Assembly (NCBI GenBank): GCA_021927905.1
Contig: BLLK01000045.1
Location: 1,736,001-1,800,000 of the forward strand
Source of the DNA: Chaetoceros tenuissimus
Lineage: Eukaryota; Bacillariophyta; Thalassiosirophyceae; Chaetocerotales; Chaetocerotaceae
DNA length: 64,000 nucleotides
Direction: 5' to 3'
A program made the translations under genes and the position numbers. The notes below the pieces were generated by a model that saw nothing but the letters and a program-made list of their open reading frames with translations, did no database searches and was not told where the DNA came from. The stretch's first letter is position 1, and each line of letters opens with the position of its first letter. Below, piece after piece: positions 1-64,000 of the stretch.

Positions 1-1612
1 AGAAAGCAAGGTACAACACTTGAGTCGTCCTAAAGTTCACTGTGCTCCCGATTTCAACTTGGATACTGCTTTCGTCAAATTCTTTACATCCAATTCTTTC
101 TTTTGCTGTTTCGAAATCTTCAAAAAAGCAAATTGATGTGGATACTTCACTTGTACCGACTCTATCTAAAGAATACACCAGTCGTGTATTTTTGTTAATT
201 TCAATTTTTTCTGAAAGCTCGAAAATTCTGTATGTGGAGCCAAAAATTTCCATGGTGTTTTTCCCATATATAGCGATACCGCTGAAGCCATCATAAACAT
301 GATTATCAAGGTACTCATGAAGAGGTATGAAATTTGCCTCAACCGAATGACTTTCAATATTCTTCGGAGATAAAGCAAAAATATTTTTTGCTTTCAGACT
401 TGCTTCGTTTGTTATTTCTAAAGATAATCGTTCAGCTCCCAGACAACGCCCTTCGTCACAATTATTCACTTGACACTCATTATTTCTTGTACAAGATTCG
501 CCATCTTTTACACTTTGAAAATTCGTTGGCTCTTCGCTAGGAAGTAGAGATGGTTTTGAAGAAAACGAAGGACTGGGAGAAGGTTGAAGTGTTGTAGGTG
601 TAGTACTGGGTTTCATCGATATGGTTGGTCTCTGCGAAGGCGACATAGATATCGTGTCTGCTATGGTGGGATTATTTGAAAGAGTTGGAGACGTTGTGGG
701 GGTCGCAGTTGGTCTTTGACCACAACTTCCATCAACACATGGCACACATCTATCTGTAGACTCTCTAAGCACGTTACCACCTAGTATGTTTGTACTTTTG
801 TAACCAGAGAAACATTCACATTGGGCGTTAAACATGTTTCCATTGACACCAACTGGTTCAGCAAAACTGTCTCCACATTCTTTGACAAAAACAAAGTGAT
901 CGACGTCTTCATTTTGGTCAATGACATCAACCCGACCAAATTTCTCATTGATCGCTAAACCACCAAGTCCCAATTTTCTTTTTTGACCATTACCATAAAT
1001 TACATCATTCATCATCTCCCATTTGCCTTCTACGTACTGATAGACCAATACTGTGCCAACTTCTTCGTCGGCTCTATTTAAAGTCAAGGGTGCGGATACA
1101 GCAAGGGAACTACCATTCTCAGAAAGTGCTACTTTCCACCCAAAGGAGTCGAACTTTTTGTTCAAAATTTTTCGTTCAGACGTCAACTGCCCTCTTTCCA
1201 GATTGTATGTATATGCTGCATTTTCATGAGGACTGCCAATAGCAACCATTCTAGAATCTGGTGTAATATCTACACCATTACCATACTGACTGATCCAAGG
1301 TTGAGTATGTAATGCACCCTTTGTCATGTCCATGACATCAAAAATCTTCACCACACCTACCCCGTAAGATGCAAAGCCTACTACAGCGATTCCTTTGTCT
1401 GATATTGCAAAACTTCTTACTTGGCCTTGTTTGTCATGATAAGTATCCCCTTTTCGACTTTGTTTATCTTCCCTCAAAATTAATATCTCATTTGCATCAT
1501 TTTTCACTGCAATGAATTTGCCATTGGTGCTTGACGATTTCCGCATGGTACCTTGAACATTCAAATTATTGATGGAAACGTCATGAATTTGTGTCCATTG
1601 ACTTGATTCCTC
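1..1612 (-). other. last visible exon: FG-GAP-like propeller, PS stalk, EGF-like knot and beta module
   Basis: The exon encodes repeats resembling integrin-type FG-GAP blades (VAIGSPHENAAYTY, then VALSENGSSLAVSAP), a Cys cluster ending at VDGSCGQRPT, a short threonine/proline/serine linker, and a knot GESCTRNNECQVNNC. After it comes a beta-rich module ending in ICFFEDF. That module matches the one in the exon at 2824-2373, which ends in ICVYEDY and is likewise preceded by a GESC knot. The GESC-beta unit is therefore used at least twice. The reading frame is open at base 1. Confidence 0.75.
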
Positions 1613-4600
1613 CTTCAATTGTAAAAATGAAAGAATCAGCATAAAAAATCAACATTTATGATACAAACTATAAAAAAAGAAGCAGACAAACTTACTTCGT
1701 CTAGATCAATTTCTATCTCGCTTTCTTCGACAAATATAATATCTTCTACAATACTAGCCACTGTGTCCGTGTTTTCAAAATCTTGAAGAAGTGCTATTCG
1801 GTTCATCTCCATATCAGCAAATCTTTAAAAAGAATACAAATGAGAAAATTAATGTAGGAGTAATGAGAAAATGAGTAAACATTTGACATACCGAAAAATC
1901 TCCCCAATTGGCAAATCAAAATCATAATATTCTCCGTAAACTTTTACTTCAGCCAAACAAAGGACCCTATTTTTTCCTTTCAAACTTAGTCTAACTTTTT
2001 GGCCAGTAATGCTATCAAGCTTTATTTCAATAGATGAAGATGACTCGTTATTTCTATCAATTGTTTTTCTTGACACTTCTCTATTAGAAGAATTTCTGAT
2101 GACTAATTCAAGATTTGACAAGTCGTCACCATATTCACCCAATCTTTTGAAAATAATTAGTTTCTTGATAACGAAGTCCTCTTCTAGATCAACTTCCCAC
2201 CATGGATCATCTTCAACATCAGTTTGAGTGACACTATTGCTTTCCCATCCAATATTGTCGAGCATTTGGTCGTCTTTACCGCTGAAGAAAAAGAAAATAT
2301 ATTAGAATTAGAAAAGATTTTTTATCAATATCAACATTCAATTTGGTTCTGGTGTATGTATATGATACTTACTCCACGGCAAGCTCTGGCCATCCAGGTG
2401 CAACCACAGTACTCGCGTCAGCAGACTTTTTCAAAGCTAGGTTTCTTTGCTTTCCAGAAAGCGACTCATGCCTATCTTCCAGCAGAACATTACGGTTCCG
2501 AATTGATAGGTTTCCTCCTAGAAGTTGGACACAATAAATATTAAGATCTTCAAATGGGACCAAGTAGTCTTCATACACACAAATCCCAATACCATCGGCT
2601 TTTTGAATTTCCTTCACCAAAAATTGGATTCTGGTTAAAAAGTTCGTAGGTATCTCGAAATTGAGATGGAACTGTACTCTGACATTCCCAAACATTTGAA
2701 TAGAATCTTTTGGCGAAAATAATACTCCTCCGGATTTTTCAATAGCTTTTGGCCACTTTTTCGTTTCAATGATGGAAATTTGAGTTTCACTGACAAAATC
2801 TTTTCTGTAGGATAAGTCAAATGACTTGAATGTAAAATTCATGTGTCAAAAAACTGTTGTAGAATTCTTCAATTTGACAAAGCTAAACTATTGACATGAA
2901 CTTACCTCGGATATACAAATGTTTTCTTCGCAGATTCCATACACACACTCTAAATTTGCTCGACATGATTCACCCTCATATAAAGATTTGTACATTGTGG
3001 GAAAGCTTGACGGGGATGAAGAAGGAGTTCTTGTAGGAATCTCCGAGGGCATTGATGACGTTGACGGAGCATTAGAGTTAAATTCAGAAAATGTTGGACT
3101 GTTTGTTGGAGTTGAAGTTGGTTTTTGAGAGAGTGAGGGACTTGGAGAAGGGATTTGAGTTGGTCTGTAGCTAGGACTCTTGCTTGGAAATTTACTTGGG
3201 GACGCTGATGGAACATTAGTTGGCCTCAACGATGGTTCTGGTACTGGTCGTTCTGAAGGAGCAATGGATGGAACTTCTGTTGGGGAAGTACTTGGCCGAG
3301 AACTTGGATGAGATGAAAGAACCACACTCGGTGTAATGGATGCACGTAAACTTGGACTTGATGATGGTTTAGAACTGGGCGGAACTGATTGTTCAGTAGA
3401 TGGTTCTGTGGAGGGAAAATATGAGGGTAAAGATGATCCTGTCAGTGTCGGAGCAAGAGAAGGTTCTATCGATGGTAATGAAGAAGGTAGTTTTGAGGGA
3501 GATGATGATGGCTCATTTGTGGGTTTACTCGATGGAGAAGATGATGGATTTACTGACGGTATCATACTCGGTAAGTAAGAAGGAGTCAATGATGGAAAGC
3601 TACTGGGATCCTTTGATGGTAGAAGTGATGGTGCATCCGTAGGGTTTATTGATGGCCCATCTGAATGTAAAATAGAGGGAGTTATTGAAAACTGTAATGA
3701 CGGAATGGAGCTTGGTGCAGAAGAAGGTGAGCTTGAAGGACTTAATGAAGGCAAATCTGACGGTCTCAAAGATGGAAGGCTACTTGGTTGATCAGATGGT
3801 ACGTCTGACGGAATATCTGATGGCATCGATGACGGAAGCAAACTTGGTTGATCAGATGGAATGTCTGACGGAATATCTGATGGCATCGATGACGGAAGCA
3901 AACTTGGTTGATCAGATGGAATGTCGCTCGGAATATCTGATGGCATCGATGACGGAAACAAACTTGGTTGATCAGATGGAATGTCTGACGGAATATCTGA
4001 TGGCATCGATGACGGAAGCAAACTTGGTTGATCAGATGGTACGTCTGACGGAATATCTGATGGCATCGATGACGGAAGCAAACTTGGTTGATCAGATGGA
4101 ATGTCGCTCGGAATATCTGATGGCATCGATGACGGAAGCAAACTTGGTTGATCAGATGGAATGTCTGACGGAATATCTGATGGCATCGATGACGGAAGCA
4201 AACTTGGTTGATCAGATGGTACGTCTGACGGAATATCTGATGGCATCGATGACGGAAGCAAACTTGGTTGATCAGATGGAATGTCTGACGGAATATCTGA
4301 TGGCATCGATGACGGAAGCAAACTTGGTTGATCAGATGGAATGTCGCTCGGAATATCTGATGGCATCGATGACGGAAGCAAACTTGGTTGATCTGAAGGA
4401 ATGTCTGACGGAATATCTGATGGCATCGATGACGGAAGCAAACTTGGTTGATCAGATGGAATGTCGCTCGGAATATCTGATGGCATCGATGACGGAAGCA
4501 AACTTGGTTGATCAGATGGAATGTCTGACGGAATATCTGATGGCATCGATGACGGAAGCAAACTTGGTTGATCAGATGGAATGTCGCTCGGAATATCCGA

Positions 4601-7600
4601 TGGAATATCTGATGGCATCGATGACGGAAGCAAACTTGGTTCAGCTGACGGGAAAAGTGATGGTGCATCCGTTGGACTCAAAGATGGACCGTCAGAGTGA
4701 AGTACAGAAGGGGATATTGAAAAAGCAAGTGATGGTAGTGAGCTCGGATAAACAGATGGTTCAGAACTTGGATTAGAAGTTGGTAAGCTTGAAGGAGAAA
4801 CAGAAGGAATTGAACTTGGAAAGAAAGACGGTTCAGAACTTGGTTCTGAGCTTGGAGAACGACTTGGTTCGCTTGAAGGAATTAAAGTTGGCTCTGAGCT
4901 CGGAGAAAGACTGGGTTGGCTTGATGGTAGCAATGAAGGCTCCGAAGAAGGAAACAAGGATGGTTGACTTGAAGGAAGCAAACTTGGTTCTAGTGAAGGA
5001 AAAGTAGAAGGTGTAGATGTTGGAGAGGAACTGGGACGCATTGAAGGTTCAGCAGTCGGAGTGACTGAAGGTGATGAGCTCGGGCGTAGAGATGGGCTAG
5101 AACTAGGAACACCACTATGAACAATGGATGGTAAAACAGAGGGTTGTAGTGAAGGAACATCTGAAGGGTAGTTTGTGTCTTCAATCAATACTTCAACCGC
5201 AATGCCTCGCTTTTTATATAATCCTAATTTCAAACCATTTTCTGCGTTATTTCTTGTTTTCGCCGAAGATACCTTTGAGTTTGTAATTTCGACTTTCACT
5301 TCGCAAGAACTTGAATTTGAATTCTGCAACATTCTTCTTGAAGTAGATGATACCAACGTAAGTATGATATCATTTTCAGTGATGACAAGAGGTTTCATAC
5401 TTTGAATAATCAAAATCTTGATGTCAAGCTCAAGGTCTGCTGTCAATGTTGAAACCCCGTTTAGTTGCATTGTGAATTCTACGGATACACTTTCACTTAA
5501 TGTCGGAGAAATGGAAACAGTTGGTTGCGACGATGGCAAAATGGTCGGTAAACTTGATGGTACAGTTGTCGGTATATTTGATGGAAACATTTCAGTGTCG
5601 TCGAACCAGAATTGATCGGTACCATCATTCCTACATGGACTGACAATCAATCTAAAACTGTCATCGATATCAAGGCATAATGAGTCAATTCGCAACACAT
5701 AACGATTGTCGTCATGATCCCAGAGCATATATGGAGTACTTTCACAAGGGGCCAATGTAACATATCCATTGACGTTTGTTGAACGAGAAAGGCACTGGTT
5801 CATATATACTCCACCCAAAGCAGTTATCCTCCCATCTTCATGTATCTTAAAGTCTTGTTGTACGTTTCCATTGCAAGAGACCAAAAGTATTTCACCATTG
5901 TCAAAATATTCAATGCACTTGTCAGCATGTCCCGTCATATGAATACCTCGTACAATAGGAACATTCACTGATGGATACAAACTTGGGATTGATGAGTCAG
6001 ATGGTGAAGATGACGGTGAAGATGAAGGCAAACTGCTTGGTTGAAATGAAGGCGATACTGTTTGAGTTGGAGACAAACTTAATACGACACTTGGAGTGAC
6101 GCTCGATAATTTAGATGGAAAAGCACTTGGACTGTCTGGAGGTGGTTGTGCTCCGTATACTTCTACTTCAGTGAACATTAATACTTTCCCACTACCACCT
6201 CCAAGGGCTCCTTGAATTTTGAATTGATTTCCAATGACTTGTTGAATATTAACCATAATAGGGTTTGGTGGTGTTTCTGTTGCACTAATGTTGCTTTCGT
6301 ACACAACTTGGTTTTCGCGGAGTATAGTGAGTCTCGAACCAAGTAATCTATTACCAGTGTTTGCCTTGAAGTATATTTTGATCATATGTATCTCAAAATT
6401 TTGACTGAATTGCACTTGCCACCAGGGATTTGGGTCGCCCCAATATGTAGAAGAGGATCCTTTACTCCAATTCACATCTTTATTCCCATCAATTGCCTTT
6501 CCAGCACCAAATCCCCCACCAGTGGAAGATTGACTTGCTACTCCACCTGCAGTATTTCGTGCAACATTCACGGTGGGAGTATTTGAAGGTTGCGTTGAAG
6601 TCGATGGACTACTTGATATCGAAGGAGTTAATGTGGGCTGTGATGACGGCAATGAAGATGGAAACTGCTCTGAATCATCAAACCAAACCTGGTCTATGCC
6701 ATTATTACGACAAGCATTCACTACCAAAGTCAAACTATCAGACGAGTCCAAACACCACGACCCGACACGAGATGCAAATACTCCACCGACAAATGTCCAT
6801 ATCATGTAAGGATTCTCTCCACAAGGTACAAAATGAATAGACCTGTCGTCATCTGACACACGAGACAAACATTGATCAGCATATGATCCTGCCACGGCTG
6901 TGATTCGTCCGTCTTCATGAAACCTGAAATCTTGTTTCTGTGAGCTGGTATCACAAGTAGCAAGAATAGCAACTCCAATATCATTGTAGTCTAAGCACTT
7001 GTCAGCGTGTCCAGAGAGATGTATACCTTGAAAGAGAAGTGCAACGGCTGTAGGGGACGACGATGGAAACATTGAGGATGTTGATCCAGCTGATGGTGAC
7101 AATGAAGGCAAACTGCTTGGTGGAAATGACGGTTTTGCTGTTTGAGTTGGAGATAAACTTAACAAGACACTTGGAGTGTCGCTCAGCACTATGGATGGAG
7201 ATGCACTCGGATTGTCACTCTGCGATATCGAAGGAGTTAATGTGGGCTGTGATGACGGCAATGAAGATGGAAACTGCTCTGAATCATCAAACCAAACCTG
7301 GTCTATACCATTGTTAAGGCAAACATTCACTACCAAAGTCAAACTATCAGACGAGTCCAAACACCACGACCCGACACGAGATGCAAATACTCCACCGACA
7401 AATGTCCATATCATGTAAGGATTCTCTCCACAAGGTACAAAATGCACAGACCTGTCGTCATCTGACACACGAGACAAACATTGATCAGCATATGATCCTG
7501 CCACGGCTGTGATTCGTCCGTCTTCATGAAACCTGAAATCTTGTTTCTGTGAGCTAGTATCACAAGTAGCAAGAATAGCAACTCCACTATCATTGTAGTC

Positions 7601-10600
7601 TAAGCACTTGTCAGCGTGTCCAGAGAGATGTATACCTTGAAAGAGAAGTGCAACGGCTGTTGGCACATTACTTGGGGTAACTGAAGGACTGCTAGATGGC
7701 AAAGAGGATGGTGCCTCACTTGCTACGTATTCGGAAATAGACACGTCATTATAAACAACGGTTTGCTGCAGGTTCATATTCTTTGATGTCAAAGCAATTC
7801 CTACTTGTAAACTGCTTCCTTTACACACCGGTGCCATATTATCCGGAATTGTTATTAATGTTCCAACGTATTCATTGAAACATATATCTCCAGCGCTACT
7901 CAAATTAGTAAAACAACCGGATGGTCTATCATTTCTGGATGTAGTAGAAGAGCAAGTGTAAGTCTGAAAGTGAGAGGAAGAAAGAATATCAATGCTGGTG
8001 CACTCTTCGTATGTAACTTTGCTGCTCCCGTCAGGACACGAGTCTTTACTCCCGCTACCAGCAAAATAAAAATGAGAGGAATTCATATCAAATGTCTTGG
8101 ACGACATGAATTGCCAAGCATCGATGTTTGATTTGCGAAAATACGCAGTGAAAGTATTTTGTTGTCGAATCATACGAAGCTGACCGCCACCACTATTTGT
8201 TGATACTGTCGTTCCAGTAGTGGCTGCATCTTTAGAATCACGCCAATTAATAGCCAAACCATTATCTTGAGTCTGAAGGAGGCTAATATGTTTCGATCCC
8301 GGTTCGATTGTATCTCTAATGCTGATCCCAAACTTGGCGAAAGGATCACTATTCAAATTGGAATCAAATCCTGAATCAGTGTTGACATAAAAGTCAAAGT
8401 CAGAATAACCCCATTCCTGCCGAAAGTAAACAAATGAATCAGAAGTCCCCCAAATATCACCACTAGCACTCGTCATTGAAAACGAATCACTAGCCGATGT
8501 CAAGTCTGAAACTAAAACATCAGATCCAATTGCATCATGACTGAACGTTCCAGCGTAAACCTCACATTCTGCTATCCAAACTGCCAAGTCAGCAGGTATT
8601 TGAATTTTGACAACAGTACCTGCGACATTTGGAACAATAGGAACCCTAGTCACAGCTGAAGCACGTGCTGCATTATCAATGTAAGAGAAGACCTCTTTGC
8701 CATTATTGTATATTGTGAGTTTGAACCCATTTAATCTATCAAGACAGCAGGTATCTACACGATTGTACAATACCACAGATGATATCATATATTGTCTGTC
8801 CAATTGAACTTGCCACCAAGCATCCGTTTCGTCATCAGTGGTACTCACAGATCCGTTCCCAAAAACACCATCCGTATTTCCATCAATTGCTAATGACGCC
8901 GCCGAAGGATAAGTTGAGCTTTCTGATGATTGAGTGGCATATCCAGACAGTGCTACATTTGTATGAATACTGGGAATACTAGGATGAAATCTTTGGATTG
9001 AAAAATCACGGAAATCCACACTTTGTTGAATATCATCATGGGTGGACAATCCAATTCCAATCTCAAGTGAACGCTTACAAATTGGTTGAGGAATAGGCCA
9101 CATTGATTCCAAATCAATTTGAGAATTGTCCAAGGTATTAAATCGTACCCCATTAAAGAGTGTTGAAGAATAGCACCCTGATGGAAGTTTGTCATTAGAC
9201 ATAAGAGAAGCTGAATTGACTTGAAAGCCTGGACTAGAGTTCAATTCATGGCTGAAACATTCCTGGATGGATGTTACTTTCTTTGAACCAGTTGGGCAAA
9301 AATCTGTTCCGGGTTCCCCTTTGAAATACTTTGTCATGCCGACAACTTTTGAGCCTAAAATCTCCCATGAATCGACTGGAGTCTTGCGATAATATAGTCG
9401 AAACAAATCAAATTCCCGAGTGACTCTCAACCATACTCCTCCAGAATTGTCTGAAATGAATGAATGTTTTATGCCTGTATCAGATTCATCTCTCCATTGA
9501 ATACCTAGACCGTTTTGAGCACTTTGAACTGCCGCAACAATTTTTGCCCCCGGATCTGTTGATTCTTTTAACAACAAAGCCAGTTTTGACCATGGATCAC
9601 CTGAAGGATTTAGTCCAAATCCAGTTGGTGCATACATTCTCATGTCAAAGAAAAGCTCATCAGTTTGACTCCTAGCAAACAAAAAAGAATCTTTTGTACC
9701 ACGAAGATCTCCACTCGTACCTGACAAAGTGTAAACATCATTTTCAATGGAGAAATTATCCAATGATGATTGTGACCCTACTAGCTCTGGGATCCATTGG
9801 CCGGCATATACTTCAAGCTCTTTGAGCTGAATAATGTTGTAATAATCTAGACTGACGAGTTCGAATCGCACAATATTTCCCTTGACGGCAGGAGAGACTG
9901 GAATGTTTGTTACAAGGTTGACTGAAGTTGCAGAATCATTGTAATAGAAAACTGGGTCGTTATCATGGAAAATCACCAAACGGAAGTAATTGTTTCTATG
10001 AAGACAGCAGTGTGTTGAAATATAAGCAATAACCGATGAAATCATGTAATAATCGTCCAACTCTATTTGCAACCATGCAAGTTCGGACTGATCTACATCA
10101 GTGGCTTGAAAGTTCGACATTGAACCATCATTGACAAGATTCGCTGGATAATTGCTACTAAATGTTGAGGACTGCTGTGCAGTCCCTAGAAGTGCAACAT
10201 TTGTATGGACGGATGGTATTGGTGCGATGAATTTCTTCACCATAAAATCACTGAAAACAGTAGTTTGGGTGACAGATGATTGATTAGATGAAACCCCAAC
10301 CCCAACTTCCAAATTTCCAGACATTATAATATTTCTGGATCCCACATACTGCCATAAGTCGACATCTGTCTTTCTAAAGTAACATTTGAAGACATGATGC
10401 TCACGTGTGATTCTCAACCATCCTCCTCCTGTATTACTTACACCAGATATCCACTGATAATTCCCCCCTGTTTCTTCTCTCCATTGTATAACTATACCAT
10501 AACTTTTTGTCTGCATGATGCTAAAAAATTTAGAACCTGGTGAGGTTGTATCACGCATCATGAGTGCAATTTTTGAAAATCCATGAGCAGTCGGGCTACT

Positions 10601-13600
10601 GTCAAAACCATTCTGGGTGTACACAGAAACATCCAAAAATAATTCTTCATTTTCTTTCACAACACTGACTGGTATCCATTCGTTTGCTGCGTATTGGCCA
10701 AGAGTAGGCTCGTGAACATGTCGAACAGTGATCCATCTATCCCCGACAAACGCTTGTAGTTTCACACTTGTGACAACCCAAACATCATTGTAGTGTTTGA
10801 ATTCCGCCTATGTGCATCGAAATTAGATTTGGAAAATAAGAAAAAAAGTGGGTAAAAATGAACATTGGAACTGACCTTTGTAACGGCAACAATTCCACTG
10901 AATTCAAATCCAATGTACAGATCGCCGTTTGAATCAGCACGTCCTCCCCACCTACCACTGGAGACTAACACATTGTCTTGGTGATACGGACTCCCGTCAC
11001 TGTGCAAATGTGAACTAATGACCGCCGAGGGCTGAATTTCCTCATTATCCTCACTATACATTCGCAGTTCTGAAACATCCCATACATCTTCATCTAAATT
11101 ATTTTTGTTTTTCGCTGTCCCAAGAAGCCGCCATCTTTTCGCCCGAATCTACAAAGACAAAGGAGATATTAGTGCTTTGATAACTTGTACAGGCAATTCA
11201 AATAATCTCTCACACTTACCGGGCCTATTTGTCTTCGTGCAAAAGTAAAGGAGTCAGAACTTCCTACGATATCCGTTCCAGCATCCGCAGTAACTGTGTA
11301 TGAGTCGTTGATATGGTTGTAATTCAAATCCCCTGATGTTGTTCCAATCAACGATAAAGATAGCAGAGCCTAGAAGATTAAAAACAAGTGAGCAAATACG
11401 AACAAATCACAGAGATTTTTCTGCTACAAAACTCCGTCATAAACTTACAGATGTTTGAGACTGGAAATCGCTAAGACTCTCTGATGTGATGGAAAAATCA
11501 TATACTCTTATCTGTCCTCTCCATGGGCGTAACGCAATACTAGACACTTCTGTAGCGGTCGTGATTGCTGAATTACTCACTTCCACGTTATTTACATAGA
11601 ATTGAACATTTGTACCAGACCGTTCAATTCTGAAGAAAAATAATTTTGCACTCGATGTTGATAAATCTCCAAAGTCGGTGGCTACTGAGCCAAAAACTCC
11701 TGCTTGATAAGCAAAATTCCCACCATTGTGATCAAAATAAATTCTACCACCAAAAATCGAAAGTAATTCATGCATGGCATAACCATTTACTTTCAATTTC
11801 ATATCCAGAATAAAATCACCTGTTCCCAAAGGAATCGAGATTGACCAATCATCTGCTACTGAGGCTGAATAATGATCACCATTTATGGCCAGATAATATC
11901 CATCCTCGTCCATTTCAGTAGGTCTATCAACCGAGTCTGAAAAATTAGCCAAGTCTTCTGTTTGTATTCCATGTTTTACAAAATGAACCGTATTTGGTGC
12001 GCTAAAAGAAAAGTCTTTGAAGGGAAAAGAGGAGTCGACGGAATTTGCAGAGGCAAAAACTCCAACTTCCACATCATCTGACATTGTAGTATCAGTCGAA
12101 TCCAGAAAAAGCCATGGGTCGGTTGAGGTGTTTCTATGATATGTGTAAAACAGATTCAAATGTCGGCGGATTCTAAACCAACCTCCTGCTTTTATCTTCA
12201 TCTCAAAGGCATGAAAGCCGGTGTGACTTTTAAGAGTTACTGATTCTGTACACCCCATACAAGATCCTGGATTTTGGGAATGAGCATCGCCATAAACATA
12301 GTAATTACACTCATTAGTAGTTTGACAAAGCCGTGCACATTCTTCTAGTGTCATAGATTCATAATTTTTGAAAAGGCGATCAGCTGGGCATTTGGTATTG
12401 AGAGATACTAGTGGGTGGCCAAGAGTATAGACACTGTCAGGCGAAGTAGAGTGGAATTTTGTTACAAAAGCATGAAAGCCGTTATAACTTTCAAGAGTTA
12501 CTGATTCTGTACACCCCATGCAAGATCCTGGATTTTGGGAATTAGCATCACCATAAACATAGTAATTACACTCATAAGTACTTTGACAAAGCTGCGCACA
12601 ATCTTCTAGTGTCATGGATTCATAAATTTTGAAAAGCCTTTCCGCAGGACAAATGGTGTTGAGAGATACTAGTACGTGACCTTCATCATAATTATAAATA
12701 TTTTCGGAGGAATTTTCTGTAGAAGTAGATCGGAAATTTGCATTCACAGCATTTGGTCCTCCAGTGAAAACTGAAACAAATGAAGAGGATGAAGTCAAAT
12801 CATCACGAACCATTAATCCAAGTTTCGAGCTATTTTCCGATGTTATTCCATGATGAAAAAAGAATGGAATATAAACCATTGCATCAAAAACAATGCTTTC
12901 GCGTTGCTGCCTAGCAAATGATAGATTGCAGTCGGATCCAGTTGATACAGCACTATTGCTTCTGATAGCGTAATCAAATGAGGCTTCATCATAAGTAAGC
13001 TCGTTGACGAGGTGGCTTCCAATCCCATCAATGCTAAAATCTCCCCCATAAACTTCCACCTCAGCCAATGTGATTCCGCGGGGAGAATCTACTTCTATTC
13101 TAACTTTATCGCCCAAAGCTCCTCCTGTGATTGGAATTGTTGTCACTGCAGCTGCTCTGGAAGTAGTGTCTATATACTTGAACTTTTCAACCCCTTCAAG
13201 AGAAATTGTCATTGTAAATCCATTGATTCGATCAAGGCAAGTATCACATGTATCAATTCGATTGAAAACGGCAACAGTTGAAATCATATATTTCTTATCC
13301 AATTGAACTTCCCACCAAGCATTATCACTCCCATGCGTATGGGCCACTGACCCATTAAAAAATATTCCGTCCGTATTACCGTCGATAGCTAGCGAGGCAA
13401 CTGCACTCAAATCAGATAGAGTGAATGTAGAAGATTGAGATGCACTTCCTCTCAACGCTATATTGGTATGAAATCTTTTGTTGTCGTGAATAGTAAATGA
13501 ATCTAGGTCGACACAATAATCATGATCAGATACTGGACTGTCATCTATGCAATAAGGGACAGAAGGGTCGGCTCCAAAATGAACACACTTCAATCCTGTA

Positions 13601-14382
13601 GAACAATCAGAATCGCTATCGCAATTTCCTTCGCAGTGTCCAAGTAATGCAGTAGGATTCAATCCTTTATCGGTGGTTTGACCTACACAGTAGCCCCAAT
13701 CCTGGTATGCACTTCCTGAGCAAACAGTGGGTGCAGGGTCCCCAACATTTCGTCGACTACATACCAAGTTGGCTTCACAATCATCATCTGTGTAACAATC
13801 TCCTTCACAGAGACCAAGTTTGATTGGGTCTGCTTGTACACACCAATCATGAGTGTGGGAAAAAGGTGCAACATCACCTTTACATCTTGGAGGGTAAGGA
13901 TCACTTTCGACATCCCGAAGGAAGCAAGTCAAACCCACCGAGCAATGTGCATTGGAGTCACAATCCCCTTCACATTCATTAATTACTGCTGTATTACCAC
14001 CACCTTTGTTCACCAAAGGAGTCAAAGCTTCAACGTCTTTCAGAAGAGGAGATCGAAATGGAACACAATAATTATAATCTTGATAGGGACGGCCGACGCA
14101 TCCAGGTGGAGGTGGATCTCCTGTATTCCGGTACCAACATGTTAATCCACTACCACAATCATCATTATTAATACAATTTCCTTGACACTCGGTAAGACCA
14201 GTACCACCTACATTCTGCAATTGAACCATTTGAGCTGAAACTATTATAGAATTTTGTAGTAAACACAAAATAAAAATAGTATGTATCAATCTATTGTGGC
14301 GAGAAAAAATTTTCTTCTCTGCTTTTTGAGCCGATGATAGTATATCTCCCTCACTCATCTTTGAAGAAGTGGTACTACTCAT
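1..14382 (-). CDS. giant modular lectin-like surface protein, 8 exons, 3' end outside window
   Basis: I join eight exons: 14382-11449, 11369-11220, 11148-10876, 10807-2906, 2824-2373, 2281-1892, 1822-1696 and 1612-1. All have GT-AG borders and matching phases, giving about 4,613 codons without a stop. Order of parts: hydrophobic signal/anchor (about aa 30-50); four Cys-rich repeats of the C-E-G-[DN]-C type; discoidin-like (F5/8 type C/fucolectin) domains recognised by WW-x-V-x-L, AIDGN and EVEVYG; DUF1349-like beta-sandwiches (GGxWLRxxR, then GSK, then VGIGLS); two PAN/apple-like copies; three ricin-B-like domains; a very long PSxxPS mucin-like stalk; a GESC EGF-like knot; another discoidin-like domain; and an FG-GAP-like stretch. 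The family pattern suggests glycan binding at the cell surface or frustule. Function, substrate and true C-terminus are inference or unknown. A split into two genes is possible but nothing in the phases calls for it. Confidence 0.82.
3781..4640 (-). repeat. 60-base coding minisatellite, about 14 units
   Basis: Each unit encodes 20 residues built on SSMPSDIPSDIPSDQPSLLP. Three main unit types recur: one with DVPSD, one with a serine-codon switch in which a TCTGAC stretch reads TCGCTC on the plus strand, and the base form. One unit, near 4600, carries an extra 12 bases; one encodes LFP instead of LLP. Reading frame is preserved throughout. The array lies within a much longer Pro-Ser stalk (about 3000-5165) made of looser PSxxPS repeats and forms part of the rigid, probably glycosylated spacer. 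Confidence 0.95.
6615..7660 (-). repeat. 437-base direct duplication carrying a ricin-B-like domain
   Basis: Bases 6615-7051 and 7224-7660 are near-identical (roughly ten mismatches by eye, offset 609). Each encodes one whole ricin-B-like lectin domain (GIHLSGHADKCLDY start, QVWFDD end) plus part of a Pro-Ser linker. A third, clearly older copy lies at about 5610-5955. The two young copies differ mainly at a few residues close to the last cysteine. Confidence 0.85.
12190..12690 (-). repeat. tandem PAN/apple-like domain duplication inside a DUF1349-like domain
   Basis: Two copies share LVSLNT-x-CPA-[ED]-RLF, the C-A-x-LCQ-[ST]-T-x-ECNYYVYG core and CMGCTESVTL. They are strongly similar at both protein and DNA level, so the duplication is fairly recent. 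They sit between the front half of a DUF1349-like sandwich (ending near 12,720) and its GGWFRIRR strand (near 12,180), so they look like insertions in a surface loop. Confidence 0.7.
13508..14195 (-). other. four tandem Cys-rich repeats at the N-terminus of the giant protein
   Basis: Four copies of about 45-60 residues each begin C-[QE]-G-[ND]-C, continue with an acidic run and C-x-x-x-L-x-C, and end in Y/W-x-Y/W-C-V. Spacing of the six cysteines is conserved between copies, so each is probably a disulphide-knotted module. They follow directly on the hydrophobic leader, which fits an extracellular location. I cannot assign a named family. Confidence 0.75.
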
Positions 14383-29669: not shown

Positions 29670-31457
29670 TTACTGTGACAGCTCTCTAATTTTCTTCTCG
29701 ACAATTGTGACGTCTGAATCCAACTGTAGTAACTCCTCACGTAAAGGTGTCATGATATCTTCCGTCTGCTTCATGGACACTTCCAAATCATTTAGACCCT
29801 CTTGGTACTTGCTCTGTTGTTCAACCAACTCTAGCTGTAACTCTTCTAAACTACTGTTCACTGCTACTGTTTCAGGAACAATTGCACAAGCAGTTTTAGC
29901 AAACCTTTGCAGCGTGGAGGAGTTGTTCTCAAAGGAGTATGTTTGCTTTGGTGGAGAGTCAGTCTTCTCTACTGTTGAACGGAGGCGCGATCCAATTTTG
30001 ATCACTCGTCCTTCTTCTTCATCAGTCTCTTGCTCCGATTCTTCTGAAGACGATTCATTGAGCTTAGAAGCAAGAAAAGGTCTAGCTTTCAAAATTGGAA
30101 CCTTAGCATCAACCAAGTCTTCAATAATATCTTGGTCCTCTACATAATCATGTACCGCAGTTCTTGGTCGACCTGTAGCAGTCATTGGGCGGGCACCATT
30201 TGATTCCAAGCCTTTATCCAATTGCACATCATCGTTGACAAAAAAATGCTGTTTGGATTCGTTGGAATTTGCCTTTGACATCTTCTCACCAATATTTTCG
30301 ATAACTTCCTTTGCATCTGATGGTGACATTTCCTTTATAGACTGTTCCACATTCTTGTCATCACCAATCTTTACATTATTGATGATGTCTCTCAATGAAT
30401 CTTCTTTTGCAACTACTTTAACTTCTCCATTGTCTCTAACATTAGCTTCGTTTACAGTAGGAGGGATTTGAAACTCAATTGTGTTTCCGCCAAAAGATGA
30501 ATTTGGAAGGTTATCATGGTCTTCAGAATGCATTCTTTCATTCTTTGCCAGAGTAACAAAGAGCTGCAGCAATTTTCTTGTTTTCTCTGCATCTTTACCA
30601 GCTACGATCCTACTTGGGTTCATATCCAATTGAAGGCTGAACCTCTTTTCCACATGATCAATTAGTTTAATGAGAAAAGCGATCTTTGCTTCCTTCTCTT
30701 TTACATTGGACGAATTCAGTTCTGATTCACTGTAGCAGCAATGAATAAATATACAGTATGAATTGAAGGGTAAAGAGGGTCATTCCAAATGAGATACTTA
30801 CCTCAACACCTTTGTCAAGTCCATGTCCTCCGCACTGGCGATCGCTATGACAACATCATGAATGAATCTTAAAGGGGGCTTCTCCAGAAGCTTCGTCGAA
30901 CACCTTGGCTTACTGATTACACTATTTAACAGATATTTTGTTTGAGTTAGATCTCCAGTACAATTTCGAATCTGCTTCTTGAGATCACTTTGGATGTTTT
31001 TATCATTGCTAAAACTCTCAGCGTCCTTGTTCACAGCATCGAAAGAAGGAAAGCTTTCAATCGTACCCCCGCTCAAGCAATGAGCTACTGCTTCGTCGTG
31101 AGGAAATTTTTCGTCAAGGGCGATTTTGCCAAAGGAGTTCAACAACTGTAAAGTGTCTACAACTTCTACACCAGCAATAATGGAAGATGCTTTGACTTGG
31201 ACTTTCTTTCCTTGACAAACCCCAACAAGATGGAAGAGCTTCTCTAGAAAGGCAAGCTTTGCGTCTTTGTTTTCAAAATCGAATTCTTCCTTGGAATAGT
31301 ACTTGGCTGGGAACCCTTTTTTTGCAATCGTTGCTCGAACAACATCTGCTAAATAGCGAAGCGGAGGTCTTCTCAAAAGTTTTTCTGTGCACTTTGGCTT
31401 GGAGAAGATTTGTTGCAGCGTATGCTGAGTCTCTGAGATTGCAGCATCTAAATCCAT
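29670..31457 (-). CDS. IFT54: IFT54 (TRAF3IP1/MIP-T3) with duplicated N-terminal domain
   Basis: Exons 31457-30802 and 30729-29670 give 571 residues. The N-terminal domain matches MIP-T3/TRAF3IP1: KPKCTEKLLRRPPLRYLADVV, then KDAKLAFLEKL, then the SSIIAGVEV and ALDEKFPHDEAV segments. A second copy follows at about aa 170-290: KPRCSTKLLEKPPLRFIHDVV, KEAKIAFLIKLIDHV, PSRIVAGKDAEKT. Then comes an acidic, Ser-rich disordered middle and a C-terminal coiled coil (about aa 490-571). In other eukaryotes IFT54 is an IFT-B subunit binding tubulin and IFT20 for cilium assembly. Here it would serve flagellated sperm. The known family has one N-terminal CH-like domain, so the duplication is unusual. Confidence 0.93.
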
Positions 31458-31757
31458 GAATTCTACTTTTTGATGATTCTTTAGTAGTATAGTGAATTCT
31501 CCTTATTGATTCTAAGTAGAGTTTTTAATTCGTCCTCCTTGCTAGTGAAAGTCGTTCAAAAATTGAAATTACAGTTTTTTTTTGAAAAATGAAGAAATCA
31601 AACAAATTTTATTTGCAACAACAAATAGTTAGGAATCAAATGATTTTTAAAATTAAATATTCCCACAGAGAAAGTGATATCTGTGTTGTTAGCTGAAGTC
31701 AATGCCGGAAGCAGAGTCACATGTGAATATATTCATCTCTTACACCCAACAATATAA
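31458..31757. other. AT-rich spacer between two leftward genes
   Basis: 300 bases, with long A and T runs around 31,570-31,590. It should hold the promoter of IFT54 and the polyadenylation region opposite the end of the next gene. Nothing else is visible. Confidence 0.3.
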
Positions 31758-35200: not shown

Positions 35201-35692
35201 TTTACAACTGATACAATAAGCCCCAAGCAAATTATTCCACTAGCTTTCGAAGAAATGATTTAAATTGAAGGAAACAATTAGTCTCTACCTCTCCGGAATG
35301 AATGTTTAGATGAAGTTACAACAAATACGTAGTACAAATAATGAGTAAGAAGAATGTGATCAGTGAAAGGTGAAAGGTGAAAAAGAAGTTCGAGGGTGTG
35401 CCGAAATTTCTCAATTATGAAGTGTCTTCATCAAAAGAGGTTACGAACCTTCAAGCAATGACGATTTTCAACTTGAACTTTGATCGAAGCAGTCTGTCCA
35501 CCCCACCTACGTACCAAATAGAAGACACGTTCAAGGCCAAAAGAAAGATAGGACACAACACAATCCTGACTAGGTTTTTTCTCACCAAGTTCAACTCACT
35601 GCGTATTCCAAACACTTGTATTACTTCTTTGTACCAAAGTTGTAAAAAAGGAATATTAAACCTTTTTATATTTATTCTTTTGTTAATCTGAA
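35201..35692. promoter_or_regulatory. divergent upstream region, thioredoxin / desaturase
   Basis: 492 bases between head-to-head starts of two plastid-directed genes. A GTGAAAGGTGAAAGGTGAAA triple repeat lies near 35,362-35,381. No open frame of note is supported. Confidence 0.35.
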
Positions 35693-37287
35693 ATGAGGCT
35701 TTCACTTAGTGGCACAAATTTCGCGATCTTTGCGGCTCTCATGCTCAACAATGAGGCATATGCATTCGCACCTATTTCTTCCAAAACTTCTTCAGCTCGT
35801 ATTTCTACCCGTGTTGCGCAATCAAGCATCACTGCGAATGGAGATGTTGCAGGAGTAGACTCAACTATTGCAAGCCCAAAGGCATGGGAGTGTGACGAGG
35901 ATGCGAACTGTGTTCAGGTTGATGCATGCGATGAAGAACAATGTAGGACAACTTTGGACGTTCGTATTCACGGTGAATGGTACGACCTCAGTGGATGGCG
36001 TAAAGCTCACCCTGCAGGATCACATTGGATTGACTGGTATGATGGACGTGACGCAACTGAGGTTATGGACGGATTCCATTCTGAAAAGGCACGTAAAATG
36101 TTTTCTCGTTTGCCAAAGTCTGATCCAAAGACTGTTGCTCAGTTGGAGGCAGACGTGGTTCCTGATAGTGACATCCAAATTGCCTTCAGAGAGTTGAGAG
36201 ATCAATTAGAGGCTGACGGATGGTGGGAGAGGGATATGGCGCATGAAGCTAAACTCCTTGGAATCTGGTTCTCACTTTTTGGAGGAGCTATTGCTACTGC
36301 ACATACTCTCCCAGCTGTTAGTATTGTTTTGACAGGTCTTGCAATGACAAACGCTGGATGGCTTGGTCATGATTACATTCATGGAGTTGATAAGTTTTCT
36401 GATAGAATGAGAATGTTTGCAGCTACAGCAGCTGGACTAGGACCTACTTGGTGGAGTGATAAGCACAATAAGCATCACGCATTGAGTAAGTGTGATTCTT
36501 TGTTGATTGAAATTTCATGTCTAGTTATTTCGCTTTTCTAACTCCTACCATTTTCATAGCCAATGAAATGGGAGTCGACGAAGATGTCGCAACTGATCCA
36601 TTCCTTTTTCCATGGGCACCAGATCCAAAGCACGATAGTCCGCTTCGTAAGATCCAGCACTGGATTTTTTTCATTCCATTTTCATTCCTTTTTGCATTGT
36701 GGCGTGTTGATACCATGCAGGTAATTGTACAAGCAGTAGAAGAAAAGAGACCAAAGGCAAAGGAGGAGTTGTATGCGCTACTTGCACATTATTTCATCAT
36801 GTTGAGTGTACTTCCATTCCAAGTATGGGTTCCTGCTGTTTTCATGTCTGGTCTTATGAGTGCAATCATTGTAACACCAACTCATCAGTCAGAAGAAATG
36901 TTTGCTGAATACCAACCAGATTTTGTAACAGCACAGTTTGAATCCACACGTAATGCGGTAACAACTAATCCATTCAGCGAGTGGCTTTGGGGAGGTATGC
37001 AGTATCAACTTGAACATCACCTCTTCCCATCCATGCCTAGATCAAAGTATCCACTTTTGAGACCAATCTTACAGAAGTTCGCTGAGGAGAACAATGTTCC
37101 AGGAGGATACAGAGAGAGCGGAGAATTTGAGATTTTAAAAATGAATTGGGATTTGTACAAGAGAGTTGCAGAATCAGATCCAGTTCCAGGAGCTCCATAT
37201 TCTAGAGGACACGGACAGCTAGGTGCTATCAATCTAGGACTCTCTCCAGCTGCAGGGGGTGTAGGAGCTTTCAATAACCAAAGCTAA
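35693..37287 (+). CDS. plastid-targeted cytochrome b5-fused front-end desaturase
   Basis: Exons 35693-36485 and 36560-37287 give 506 residues. The N-terminus shows a signal peptide with an AYAFAP cleavage motif, the standard diatom plastid address. Next is a b5 domain (WYDLSGWRKAHPAGSHWIDWYDGRDATE), with HPAG in place of the usual HPGG heme motif. The three His boxes follow: HDYIHG (about aa 225), HNKHH (about aa 260) and QLEHH (about aa 414), whose Q for H is typical of front-end enzymes. Membrane spans lie between. It should insert a double bond between an existing one and the carboxyl end of plastid lipid acyl chains; regiospecificity (delta-6 or other) is not readable. Most diatom front-end desaturases are in the ER, so the plastid leader is notable. 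Confidence 0.9.
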
Positions 37288-40505: not shown

Positions 40506-41894
40506 TTAGGAATCTTCGACAGATCCAGCAAAAGACACGAATGCAGAGGTATCTGAAAATTTCATTGGCTTTGTACTCTCTTTAAGAAGACCAGACTTTG
40601 TTACGTTGATCACACTATCGATCGCAGGGTTGTAGTTCAGTTTATACAGCTCTAGTTCTCCCATTTGAAGATGTGTCATCATGATACGTCTTCGAATTAG
40701 ACCATAGATGCAAAAGAATACTTGTAGTATCGTAAGAGAAATGAGATAAGTGTAGAGACACACGCGATCCAATTCTATCCTTTTTTCTTCAGTCATTGAT
40801 GCTGAGCCAATATAAGATACCACTCCCATCAAAACACAAATGAGGAAAAAGACGAGAAAGGTGTATTGATCGAGTACTGTCATATATGAAACATTTGGAA
40901 GATATTGCGCAACAATGTATTGAAAAGCTACACTGGAAAGTATCAAAGTAATGAGGAAGCCGATTCTATCACCCAAGTCATCAACTGGATTCATTGCAAA
41001 AGCACAGACCGATGCATAAGCCAAGAGTAAGTTGTAGAGACCTATGCGGTAAAGATATCCTGCTGCCTTTCTCTTCAATTGAATTCTCATGGTGACTTGA
41101 GACCAACGAAAAGCATCTTCTCCCATATATTCCTCGCCTCCGTAGCATGCACTCTTGAACTGAACGACACATCTTTCGATATCAAAGTCAGGAACTGTAC
41201 AGTATTGCCTATTAAGCGTCACCAAAGGTACATTAAAGTCAGCAGAACTCATGATGCTTTCACTCACACCAGTTGCTAGTTCATTCTCATCAGGTTTGGG
41301 AAATGCTCCTCTTCCTGGTACAAACATCGCCTTTTCTACTGGTGCAAACGACATGTCAAGTGTAACACTTATCTCTTGAATATCAAATGGAAAGCTATGA
41401 AGTTCCAAACGCTCAACACAGGTGAGATACACTAGAGTTCTCAAAAAGTTAAAATGTTTGCCATCAACTTCTTGAATTGTAAATGGATTTCCATTTACCA
41501 ACGCTCTTCGTTCCATAGTCTCCTCTTTTGCATTTGGAAATTCAAAGTTTGGTATAAATGCAGGTTTAAACTCCACATCATTAGCTTTCCAACTGTTGAT
41601 GTCCTCATTTGTTGCTGGCCACATCATATCATATCCAATTGCAATCTTGAATGATTGATCTATGGTATCAACGTCCGCAATATGCCTGATATACATTCCC
41701 TTGATTTCGACAGGAATCTCAGTTTTGTTCCAATCTTTTACTAAGCGCTCCATAGGTGGGACCAACTAATGATTTAGAGTTATGAAAGAAGTTTGTGAGC
41801 CCAATAAGTAGTAGATCGTGAAGTGGAAAAGAATTCGCATATCAAATTGTTTTACCTTGATTTCAGCGTTATCTTTGAAGCTTTCCTGAACCAT
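40506..41894 (-). CDS. pentameric ligand-gated ion channel (Cys-loop family) homologue
   Basis: Exons 41894-41856 (13 codons) and 41765-40506 give 432 residues. The first 230 form a beta-rich ligand-binding-like domain with ERLELHSFPFDIQ, the FPFD-x-Q loop of the family. The cysteine expected right after that loop is absent, as in prokaryotic members. Four hydrophobic spans follow (YNLLLAYASVCAFAM; IGFLITLILSSVAFQYIV; YTFLVFFLICVLMGVVSYIG; LYTYLISLTILQVFFCIYG). Animal and bacterial relatives are ion channels opened by transmitters or protons; the ligand here is unknown. I see no signal peptide, so an upstream exon may be missing. The final 60 residues are cytosol-like. Confidence 0.85.
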
Positions 41895-51989: not shown

Positions 51990-53030
51990 TCACCAACTGT
52001 CATATGAAGACCTTGAAGAATAAGTCGAGTAGGAATCATATGACGACGAACCTGAGTCTCTACTTGTGTAGTCACTAGAGCAAGTTGAAGAACTAGCAGC
52101 GAGTCCAAAATCATAAGCTTTTCTATTTGGTGAAGTTTTCTGATTTCTCATGAGAGGTCGGGAATGCATTTGCTGCATCACTCTTTCAGGATAAGTATGT
52201 GTAGGCACGGTTTCTTCCTCTCTACCTGTACCAAATATAGTGTTCTCCACAGCTCTCATGAATTTTACCTTGTTTTCTTTACTCATAATTCCATCCTCTA
52301 ACTTACTGATTGCCTGCGCGGAACGCTGCAAAAATGCTTGAGTGTCATGCAACATTCCTCTATCATTCTTACTCGACCTTTGCTTTTCGCTGATGTATGC
52401 CTTCCTCTGTTGATGGCTAATATTAGGAATGTAAATTTCCTTTAGTTCAAGGCTGACTTGAGCGACAACGTCAGGAATTTCTTCATCTTCCTTTTGAAGG
52501 AAGTTTCTTCTTATTTCGTGCAAAAAGTCCTTCCTGTTGGGAAGGAATGAGATTGTGTCCTCATTTTCTTTTTCAATCTCAACCACTGGAACCTTGTTCT
52601 TCGTCATGGATGCCTCTATCTTCTGCATCTCTCTCTTCTTTGCATCTTCTTTCTTTTTCATAATCTCAGCTAGAACTCGTGCTCTATTCCCTGGGGCAAT
52701 TTTTGATGAAATGCTCTTGGCCTCACTGTTCTTTGAAGAGACGGTGATATCACCTTCTTTGGACTCCAATGAGTTCTTTGTTGAATCATGAGTTGTTAAG
52801 GTTTCGTCATATGAATGCAAATCATGCTGGAATGCCTTTTCTTCTTCATAGATTGGATGGACTACTTGAGCCTTCAATGGGATTCTTGGTGGTGTTACTG
52901 GCTTCACAGCTTTTTTCGCTCTTCTCTCCTTTTCCTTGAGTGCTGCATAGATCTGAGATCTTGACCTTCTAGTGGTCGATGCATATGACATGCTGGCTGC
53001 ATCGGATACTGGATTTACAAAGGAATTCAT
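51990..53030 (-). CDS. disordered charged protein with Ser-Tyr-Asp tail, array member 2
   Basis: 346 residues, single exon, no leader and no known domain. Two central segments, VLAEIMKKKEDAKKREM and NRKDFLHEIRRNFLQ, recall the smaller neighbour. RKAYISEKQR follows. The last 45 residues are almost only Ser, Tyr, Asp, Thr and Arg (SSYDSYSTYSSRSSYDSW), a composition repeated at the end of the next gene. Such tails are candidates for phosphorylation or phase separation; that is inference. Confidence 0.65.
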   Translation of the reverse strand: MNSFVNPVSDAASMSYASTTRRSRSQIYAALKEKERRAKKAVKPVTPPRIPLKAQVVHPIYEEEKAFQHDLHSYDETLTTHDSTKNSLESKEGDITVSSKNSEAKSISSKIAPGNRARVLAEIMKKKEDAKKREMQKIEASMTKNKVPVVEIEKENEDTISFLPNRKDFLHEIRRNFLQKEDEEIPDVVAQVSLELKEIYIPNISHQQRKAYISEKQRSSKNDRGMLHDTQAFLQRSAQAISKLEDGIMSKENKVKFMRAVENTIFGTGREEETVPTHTYPERVMQQMHSRPLMRNQKTSPNRKAYDFGLAASSSTCSSDYTSRDSGSSSYDSYSTYSSRSSYDSW

Positions 53031-53542
53031 TCTTTCAAGCGAATGCTGTTTTCAATGACTCTTGTTTCTCTGAAATAGATTCTGTTTTGATATTATTATC
53101 TACAATATCCTCCTTTCTTGTTCTCGTGCAGGTTGTTCTCTCATGTTGGAAGTCCGATGTTCTTCAACGGGCGTGTTTATTTCACGACTGAGCGCTAAAT
53201 ATACTTTTAGAGACAAAAATGAAATCGTTAGAGACACAATCGTGAAGTCAAAATATCAGTAACGGAAGCCCTTATTGTAAAAAACAATTTCGTATCTTTT
53301 ATGGTTGGAGGTATTATCTAGTTTGTTTTCGTTATAATTGTACATGTAATGCTACGAACCCTTCCTTTACTTCTCGTTCTTTTGAATCTAATTCGGGATA
53401 TCATAATTTTTAAAACCTCTACAAGTTCATTTCAGGTATGTAGACTTCTCAAAATAGAAGTGAAATCAATGTTGCTGTGTTGGAACAAGTTGATTTTGTA
53501 AGACATATATTATTTTCAATCTACCTTGATCTACCAAGTATT
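53031..53542. other. intergenic, AT-rich
   Basis: 512 bases between two leftward genes. I see no gene, repeat or RNA. It should contain the promoter of array member 2. Confidence 0.4.
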
Positions 53543-56500: not shown

Positions 56501-56901
56501 TTGGATTGATTTCCATTGCCTTGAATATTTTTTGATGCTTTCGCATTTTGGTTTTGTTGCCTTTCTCTATACAATCCAGAGTCGTTCTGGTTTCCGCTTT
56601 TATCTAAACTTGTGGGGGGTGGACTGTGTGAAGACCTCACATCTCTTTCAGAAGACCTTTCATTTCTGTACGACCTAGATGCCCTTGAATTTGTAGGGCT
56701 TCTATATTCGTAACTATTTCCCCTGGTGTCCGGGCCACTAGTAGGAGACTTTTGTTTCGTTGAAGATTGATGAGCGTTATATGTATTCTTAGCTACTGAC
56801 TTCGCCTCTATGTTACTTCTCTTTTCGCTAGCATCCCCATACTTCTTTAGAGACCGAAGTCTGCTCCTTAAGGTTGAGTATGAGTATCCCTCCGAAGGCA
56901 T
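53543..56901 (-). CDS. large disordered Ser-rich protein with SFSPPNID repeats, array member 3
   Basis: Exons 56901-55986 and 55896-53543 join G|CT to make ALAHTARRELEKG, 1,089 residues in all. No known domain. N-terminal motif MPSEGYSYSTLRSRLRSLKKYG; a possible PP1-docking site TRSVSFADD; then at least five copies of a [SW]-x-SFSPPxxDxK unit (SRSFSPQNIDEKS, SRSFSPPNIDKES, SRSFSPPNVDDKP, SWSFSPPHIDNKH and a degenerate SRSFSSSRN), which look like proline-directed kinase sites. The tail repeats Ser, Tyr and Asp (SSSSYSDSSRSYDSYDSEYS), as in array member 2. Everything points to a heavily phosphorylated, cytosolic or nuclear scaffold; a cytoskeletal or splicing-speckle role is only a guess. Confidence 0.7.
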
Positions 56902-57179
56902 TACTATCAAAATGTATACCAGTGCGAGTACTATGTTCTTGATATTTGATCAAGTAACAACTAGTAAGAAAAGAAGAAAGTTTTTTTTCAGAAAAGAAGG
57001 ATTTTCTGCGATAAGGTCTGCCTAAATTAGTACATGACATGTCTTTTACAGACAATTTTGGATCCGTTGTAAAAAACACTTTCAATTTCAACCAAATTAA
57101 ACAAATAAACTGTATCTAACGAAAAACATTAATATTCAGACTACTACTGCTATTTTATTTAGTAACTTTTTTTGAACAT

Positions 57180-59984: not shown

Positions 59985-60278
59985 TGCTCAATTTCAATCT
60001 TTCTATTATAATACCAGTATGGGCTTAGGCATTGTACCTTTATAAAAATAGAATGAAGATAATCCATCGGAAATCGTTTCAGAAAAAGGAAAGAACACCC
60101 ATCAGCGATCAAGACTAAACTAATTTAGTAATACTACTTTGGAACTAACTGAAAAGAATCCTTTTCTCAAATCTATCCATTACATACTAAATCATACCGC
60201 TTGCTAAAAAACTATCTACACGATCTTGAAACATGAATATTTAAAAGTTTAAATAATAAAACACAAAAACAGCACACT

Positions 60279-63948: not shown

Positions 63949-64000
63949 CTGCAAGTAAGCCTAACTCTATATCAGTAAACTATGAAAATGAAAAAGGATT

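Follow-up and report, generated by a model that had tools for sequence, protein, structure and literature searches.

F-type lectin domains are described in a survey of the family by a fucose-binding motif, H x24 R x D x4 (R/K), and have already been reported from diatoms, mostly fused to other domains (PMC5712786). In the same group of algae, an 85-gene cluster of Cyclotella cryptica is enriched in the discoidin domain (PMC5124317), and ricin-B-like lectins occur in tandem in Seminavis robusta (PMC7335047). Outside the algae, oyster sperm bindin is a secreted protein in which the F-type lectin domain is repeated several times, and it shows positive selection at the fucose pocket (PMC5712786). 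Here we analyze a gene of the diatom Chaetoceros tenuissimus, which lies on the minus strand at one end of a 64,000-nucleotide stretch of contig BLLK01000045.1 (assembly GCA_021927905.1, positions 1,736,001 to 1,800,000; "the window" below means this whole stretch). In the encoded protein, F-type lectin domains alternate with DUF1349-type sandwiches bearing inner modules, and three ricin-B trefoils are also present. Judging from its sequence, there is an even chance that the protein is secreted into the cell coat of the diatom, where it would bind glycans multivalently from a stalk.

Since expansions of F-type lectin, discoidin and ricin-B domains in diatoms have been published, the parts of this protein are of known kinds. 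The initial annotation had found the number of sugar-binding module types in one chain striking, a claim that is weaker than it was stated in view of these related diatom proteins. Among the titles listed in literature searches of open-licence papers, none describes an alternation of fucolectins with DUF1349-type sandwiches in which different guests are inserted. To our knowledge, oyster sperm bindin has no stalk and no nested modules. The protein shares extracellular carbohydrate-binding or adhesive themes with the discoidin-enriched and ricin-B families of diatoms and with their GDPH/vWD adhesive proteins. It differs from the latter in that the GDPH motif is absent from its 4,613 residues, and that no vWD match was obtained in the six open reading frames (ORFs) of the window that were scanned with Pfam.

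A very large gene and its F-type lectin domains

The gene is real, coding, very large and modular. The eight phase-matched exons and more than 4,600 residues of the initial annotation were borne out: exons at 14382-11449, 11369-11220, 11148-10876, 10807-2906, 2824-2373, 2281-1892, 1822-1696 and 1612-1 are separated by seven introns of 68-91 nt, all GT..AG and in phases 0,0,0,0,2,2,0, and the spliced translation runs for 4,613 codons without a stop, exon 4 by itself providing 2,634. GC content is 41% in exons, 28% in introns and 30% at third positions. The last exon reaches the window edge while still open, so that the C-terminus falls outside the view. For introns 2-5 there is support from modules running across them: DUF1349-type copy C3 is shared between exons 2 and 4, with exon 3 lying within its insert; the unit of Cys-mini and B modules that intron 4 cuts recurs whole in exon 8; and D6, when joined over intron 5, is matched by a solved fucolectin across residues 2-143 of 145. 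Introns 1, 6 and 7 are placed by splice sites and phase only. The ratio of nonsynonymous to synonymous substitution rates (dN/dS) between module copies was 0.28 (R1/R2), 0.28 (P1/P2), 0.27, 0.23 and 0.17 in five of eight pairs, the synonymous rate (dS) not being estimable in the remaining three. As dS is near saturation (2.3-3.2) in the three pairs with the lowest ratios, only the values of R1/R2 and P1/P2 are firm, and that of R1/R2 rests on about nine differences. The module copies thus appear to be under purifying selection, firmly so for these two pairs only.

Five domains, D1 and D3 to D6, had been called discoidin-like. Pfam does return the F5/8-type C family for such modules, and they seem to be classified more exactly as F-type fucolectins, D3 weakly so. 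In a search of PDB sequences, D1 and D4 matched striped-bass FBP32, eel agglutinin (AAA) and bacterial fucose-binding modules before all else; fucolectins also ranked first for D5, D6 and, weakly, D3, which is 36-43% identical to D1 and D4. FBP32 was likewise the best PDB match for the whole exon-1 frame and for the whole exon-4 frame. The exon-6 part of D6 matched Pfam at 4.4e-10, and D6 is similar to D1 at 1e-13.

To place the fucose-binding residues we used an alignment of 30 rows (A16), three from the window and 27 that we chose out of the 81 loci fetched (26 from bacteria, one from a viral collection). The histidine of the triad is present in 27 of the 30 rows, and the first and the last arginine each in 29; the three rows without the histidine include D3 and D4. 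D1 carries H348, R375, D377 and R385, aligned to the family columns. The gap from its histidine to its first arginine is 26 residues, equal to that of AAA in the PDB alignment, and its AIDGN corresponds to the cation motif (small hydrophobic)2-D-G-x, whose columns are near-invariant.

The AlphaFold model of D1 has a mean predicted local distance difference test score (pLDDT) of 90.1 and a predicted template modelling score (pTM) of 0.88. Fucolectin chains occupy ranks 1-11 of its Foldseek search, with template modelling (TM) scores of 0.81-0.84 by query, and CBM32 structures follow after them. The predicted fold of D1 is therefore a jellyroll closest to the fucolectins. These 11 chains share 27-32% identity with it in the structural alignments. 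Among known systems, D1 comes closest to F-type lectins such as AAA, FBP32, the pneumococcal fucose-binding modules and the lectin domain of lectinolysin. From its fold and triad we infer that D1 would bind terminal alpha-L-fucose. In contrast to these known lectins, the domains are here repeated within a giant chain that has a stalk, and they alternate with sandwiches of DUF1349 type.

Relatives of the F-type domains were sought among bacteria and in the viral collection. The 81 loci fetched, with flanks of at most 5 kb, comprise 80 of the 113 bacterial loci found and the one viral-collection locus. In none of the 81, within such flanks, does a DUF1349-type module share an open frame with an F-type domain; a single locus (L075) has a DUF1349-type match, in a separate open frame. 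The viral-collection contig (L081, 428-7766) contains two large ORFs in which F-type lectin domains stand next to repeated segments, as if they encoded a virion or tail protein; the second ORF has the H-R-D-R residues, and the F-type domain of the first was judged by eye. When the viral collection was queried with alignments of the DUF1349-type and Cys-repeat modules of the present protein, no relatives were obtained.

Modules nested in DUF1349-type sandwiches

The DUF1349-like modules of the initial annotation found support in bacterial relatives and in the fold of C5; that other modules are nested inside them had been overlooked. A full-length alignment of the four modules, C1, C3, C4 and C5, requires that one stretch be excised from each. 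A mixed profile, built from the four excised copies and 31 bacterial copies, matches every C module in two parts with the break at the insert site, at about model position 105 in C1, 41/42 in C3 and 146 in C4 and C5, the first match in C1 overrunning into the insert as far as position 142. With a profile from the 31 bacterial copies only, run against the whole protein, the matched model positions were 58-114 and 105-167 in C1, 2-40 and 55-171 in C3, and 2-147 and 145-172 in C5 (E 5.4e-26 for the large part of C5, 0.0021 for the small one). For C4 the first part only was matched on the whole protein, the second appearing at 0.39 on the module alone. No match of this profile was reported in 200 shuffled versions of the protein. 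Taken together, these profiles indicate that each of the four DUF1349-type modules is interrupted by another one, with three insertion sites in all, C4 weakly so in the bacteria-only profile.

The inserts are of three kinds. C1 holds two PAN-like modules, which did not reach the profile cut-offs (PAN_4, 24.8 bits against 27; PAN_2, 19.3 against 21.1). They are 81% identical in a tandem repeat at 12204-12673 and arose by a 261-bp tandem duplication. C3 holds the segment E3, for which nothing matched in Pfam, PDB sequences or the F-type lectin profile; E3 was considered as another F-type lectin, and neither that profile nor PDB gave support. C4 and C5 each hold a Cys-rich module, X1 and X2, which are 38% identical.

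C5 was also modelled together with its insert. The mean pLDDT is 68, with most of the sandwich at 70-90 and values below 50 in the insert; the final two strands, which follow the insert, are at about 86 and back in the sandwich. In this model the C5 sandwich closes around a low-confidence insert. The structural demonstration of nesting covers C5 only. In the Foldseek search of C5, 3o12 (2.1e-6) and 3mep hold ranks 1-4, followed by, among others, ERGIC-53/VIP36 lectins, alginate lyases and GH43 beta-xylosidases; lectin-like folds, for which the initial annotation had proposed a search, were hence found for both modules modelled. The DUF1349-type sequence profile matched only 3o12 and 3mep in PDB (0.0039 and 0.013), both of which we take to be DUF1349 structures. 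PF07081 matches 30 of the 35 rows of the DUF1349-type alignment (A7), at best with 5.5e-10, the C4 row not being among them, and DUF1349 is absent from the Pfam matches of the six window ORFs. The assignment to DUF1349 therefore derives from the bacterial relatives and the fold, not from a direct Pfam match.

Two bacterial phyla contain DUF1349-type relatives at E 1e-8 or better, one in 32 of 288 genomes and the other in 8 of 199. Attention had been drawn to them by contigs of Pedosphaera parvula and Isosphaeraceae (L031 and L073), which we take to represent Verrucomicrobia and Planctomycetes. The likeness is one of profile similarity, the bacterial rows being 17-28% identical to C4; the bacterial copies are also repeated within one frame, and in six bacterial ORFs scanned they are accompanied by PA14, laminin G and Ig-like modules. 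The difference lies in the inserts: each of the four copies in the diatom protein has a module nested inside it, whereas the bacterial copies are uninterrupted. No insert of at least 40 residues was seen in 59 near-full bacterial matches from 49 loci (the largest had 12), a count that could overlook split bacterial copies since hmmsearch favours single full-length matches. Among four stronger partial bacterial matches, three have no large insert by eye and one (L113) is too short to judge.

Remaining modules and the rest of the window

All features of the gene are collected in Table 1. Above the Pfam cut-offs, F5/8-type C, ricin-B (three stretches) and the PT repeat were obtained; PAN and FG-GAP stayed below (FG-GAP_2, 20.5 bits against 23), so that the module list of the initial annotation is largely right with the exception of profile support for these two.

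Table 1. Features of the Chaetoceros tenuissimus gene, with window coordinates and the supporting observations
Feature	Coordinates	Strand	Evidence or remark
Whole gene model	1..14382	-	8 exons, 4,613 residues, no stop, canonical introns; open at window edge
N-terminus, signal-peptide-like hydrophobic stretch, residues 32-51	14230..14382	-	Kyte-Doolittle window 1.92 at residue 32
Four 6-Cys repeats A1-A4, residues 61-292	13507..14202	-	Mutual similarity E 3e-14 to 5e-6
D1, F-type lectin, triad H348/R375/R385	13027..13476	-	PDB FBP32 E 1.6e-24; AlphaFold2 and Foldseek
C1, DUF1349-type, split, residues 453-566 and 728-800	11983..13026	-	Complementary profile halves
Two PAN-like modules inside C1, residues 567-727	12202..12684	-	PAN_4 2.3e-5, just below cut-off
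LG module, residues 798-975	11458..11991	-	No Pfam or DUF1349-profile match
C3, DUF1349-type, residues 986-1026 and 1172-1316	10217..11369	-	Exon 2 and exon 4 parts
E3 segment inside C3, residues 1027-1171, spans exon 3	10652..11225	-	Interrupts C3 at model position 41/42
D3, F-type-lectin-like, triad lost (D,S,R)	9797..10225	-	PDB fucolectins 2e-5, 3.2e-5
C4, DUF1349-type, with nested Cys-rich X1 (9328-9074)	8975..9796	-	Split at model position 146
D4, F-type lectin, His to Thr (T,R,R)	8552..8986	-	PDB FBP32 E 5.8e-24
C5, DUF1349-type, with nested Cys-rich X2 (8074-7817)	7715..8551	-	Bacteria-only profile, AlphaFold2, Foldseek
R1, ricin-B beta-trefoil	7274..7657	-	Pfam Ricin_B_lectin 1.5e-35, exon-4 ORF, three stretches
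R2, ricin-B beta-trefoil	6668..7051	-	97% identical to R1
D5, F-type-lectin-like; triad not intact by eye	6140..6577	-	PDB FBP32 E 4.1e-12
R3, ricin-B beta-trefoil	5579..5953	-	Pfam and self-comparison of modules
Small module, residues 2893-2998	5171..5488	-	No Pfam match
Pro-Ser stalk, 726 residues, 56% P+S	2990..5167	-	Pfam PT repeat 2.2e-36
Cys-mini M1 and module B1, exon 4 end and exon 5	2444..2986	-	Repeated as M2-B2 (2.9e-5, 4.8e-4)
D6, F-type-lectin-like, exons 5-6; triad not intact by eye	1912..2443	-	PDB FBP32 E 1.9e-18
FG-GAP-like propeller candidate	881..1612	-	FG-GAP_2 5.5e-4, below cut-off
Cys-rich segment, second Pro-Ser stalk, M2, B2	2..880	-	Continues past window edge

A signal-peptide cleavage site at the N-terminus may be inferred from the hydrophobic stretch. 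The Cys repeats A1-A4 matched no Pfam family above cut-off, and none was found in the 199 genomes of one bacterial phylum, a search that shows little. The ricin-B profile scored 122.6 bits against a cut-off of 29; the QxW motif reads QVWF/QFWF in the third repeat of the trefoil and QDF in the first, and R2 is, from its sequence, a recent duplicate of R1. LG was tried as a further DUF1349 copy and gave no match to that profile.

Pro-Ser stalks are a known theme in diatoms. The stalk of this protein, of PSxxPS type, contains a 60-bp minisatellite (3782-4603, 13.7 copies, 94% match), whose length may vary between strains. Matches to circumsporozoite protein, ARID, OCM3 and SdrC/SdrD were disregarded, those to the first three because they are located in the low-complexity stalk. 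The M1-B1 segment matched no Pfam family. Beyond the 726-residue stalk a second module set begins, which starts to repeat at the window edge.

Elsewhere in the window, six long low-complexity Ser/Lys-rich minus-strand ORFs, mutually dissimilar (BLAST 1e-3), lie at 51990-63979; the one scanned (53543-55933) matched no Pfam family at 1e-5. A perfect 208-bp tandem duplication (61187-61602, two copies, 100% match) is situated between two minus-strand ORFs. Two adjacent minus-strand ORFs at 29670-31502, with 33% identity over 87 residues, are perhaps one gene or a tandem pair. A minus-strand ORF of 419 residues (40506-41765) looks ligand-gated-channel-like by eye and matched no Pfam family at 1e-5. 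A Cyt-b5/desaturase ORF at 35687-36541 has, close to its N-terminus, an AYAFAP motif reminiscent of the plastid-targeting motif of diatoms and their relatives.

A possible cell-coat function and its alternatives

As a glycan-binding protein of the cell coat, the product, with its hydrophobic N-terminal stretch, would be secreted and would combine an array of lectin heads with a long stalk, more modules following beyond it. The trefoils would bind galactose-type ends, the nested modules could act as extra binding or cross-linking heads mounted on the sandwiches, and the stalk would keep the lectin array away from the wall, with the C-terminal part beyond the window anchoring the chain in the wall or membrane. 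Such a product might retain fucose- and galactose-rich mucilage at the surface, for example the diatom's own fucose-containing sulphated polysaccharide (FCSP), and might glue cells or particles together; an adhesion role, as proposed in the initial annotation, is plausible. FCSP may be regarded as a candidate ligand. Secreted by diatoms, it was present in all eight diatom species tested and stays partly on the cell surface; it resists bacteria, and it makes particles stick, which may aid carbon sinking. The main text of the paper describing it never uses the word 'lectin' (PMC7896085).

Several points weigh against this function. The two arginines of D1 are spaced RxDx7R, which implies a longer loop than the published RxDx4R, and among the three tabulated F-type domains the triad is kept only in D1, being lost in D3 and D4; by eye, D5 and D6 are also without it. 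Macroalgal fucans consist of sulphated backbone fucose with fucose side branches (PMC7896085), so that perhaps too little terminal fucose is exposed for such a lectin. There is also no membrane or wall anchor within the window, the C-terminus lying beyond it.

The loss of the triad, together with the long Pro-Ser stalk, could instead be taken to mean that the protein is a structural component of the wall or mucilage whose work is done by the stalk, most of its lectin modules having degenerated. This seems quite unlikely, given that D1 has kept its triad and that dN/dS is low for R1/R2 and P1/P2. The same low ratios bear on whether the gene could be an artefact, that is, at least two genes fused by the model, or a pseudogene. 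The gene is truncated by the window, exons 2, 3 and 7 are short, and three introns (1, 6 and 7) have no module support; set against this, the long stop-free frame of the spliced model and of exon 4, the modules running across introns 2-5 and the purifying selection make an artefact very improbable.

A role in gamete or mating-partner recognition, in the manner of oyster sperm bindin, is suggested by published accounts in which bindins have 1-5 F-type lectin domains and bind egg envelope glycans (PMC5712786), and in which some of the sexual genes of diatoms encode surface proteins that bear beta-propellers and EGF-like modules (PMC8027222). Internal duplication is seen in R1/R2, P1/P2 and the stalk minisatellite. 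There was, however, no sign of positive selection between the copies in the five pairs with an estimate, for which within-species data would be the proper test, and the fucose triad is lost in D3 and D4. We consider this role unlikely, and keep it in view because oyster bindin uses the same lectin family in gamete recognition. No better odds are given to recognition or trapping of bacteria, in control of the phycosphere or in defence. F-type lectins serve innate immunity in other organisms according to the same survey (PMC5712786), and the ricin-B-like lectins of Seminavis are found among its tandem duplicates (PMC7335047), but the scanned ORFs showed no signalling domain.

Returning to the cell coat, a more specific proposal, which is tentative and in itself rather improbable, is that the protein is a surface tether keeping FCSP on the cell, in which the bacterial-type sandwich would act as a socket that takes different binding modules in different loops, giving changeable nested lectin heads on one stalk. 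With one sandwich family, three kinds of insert and three places of insertion in a single chain, the protein is a clear natural case of nested domain insertion. With its fucolectin site and ricin-type modules, it would offer a concrete, cloneable candidate for the surface retention of FCSP, and D1, of about 150 residues, can be produced and tested directly.

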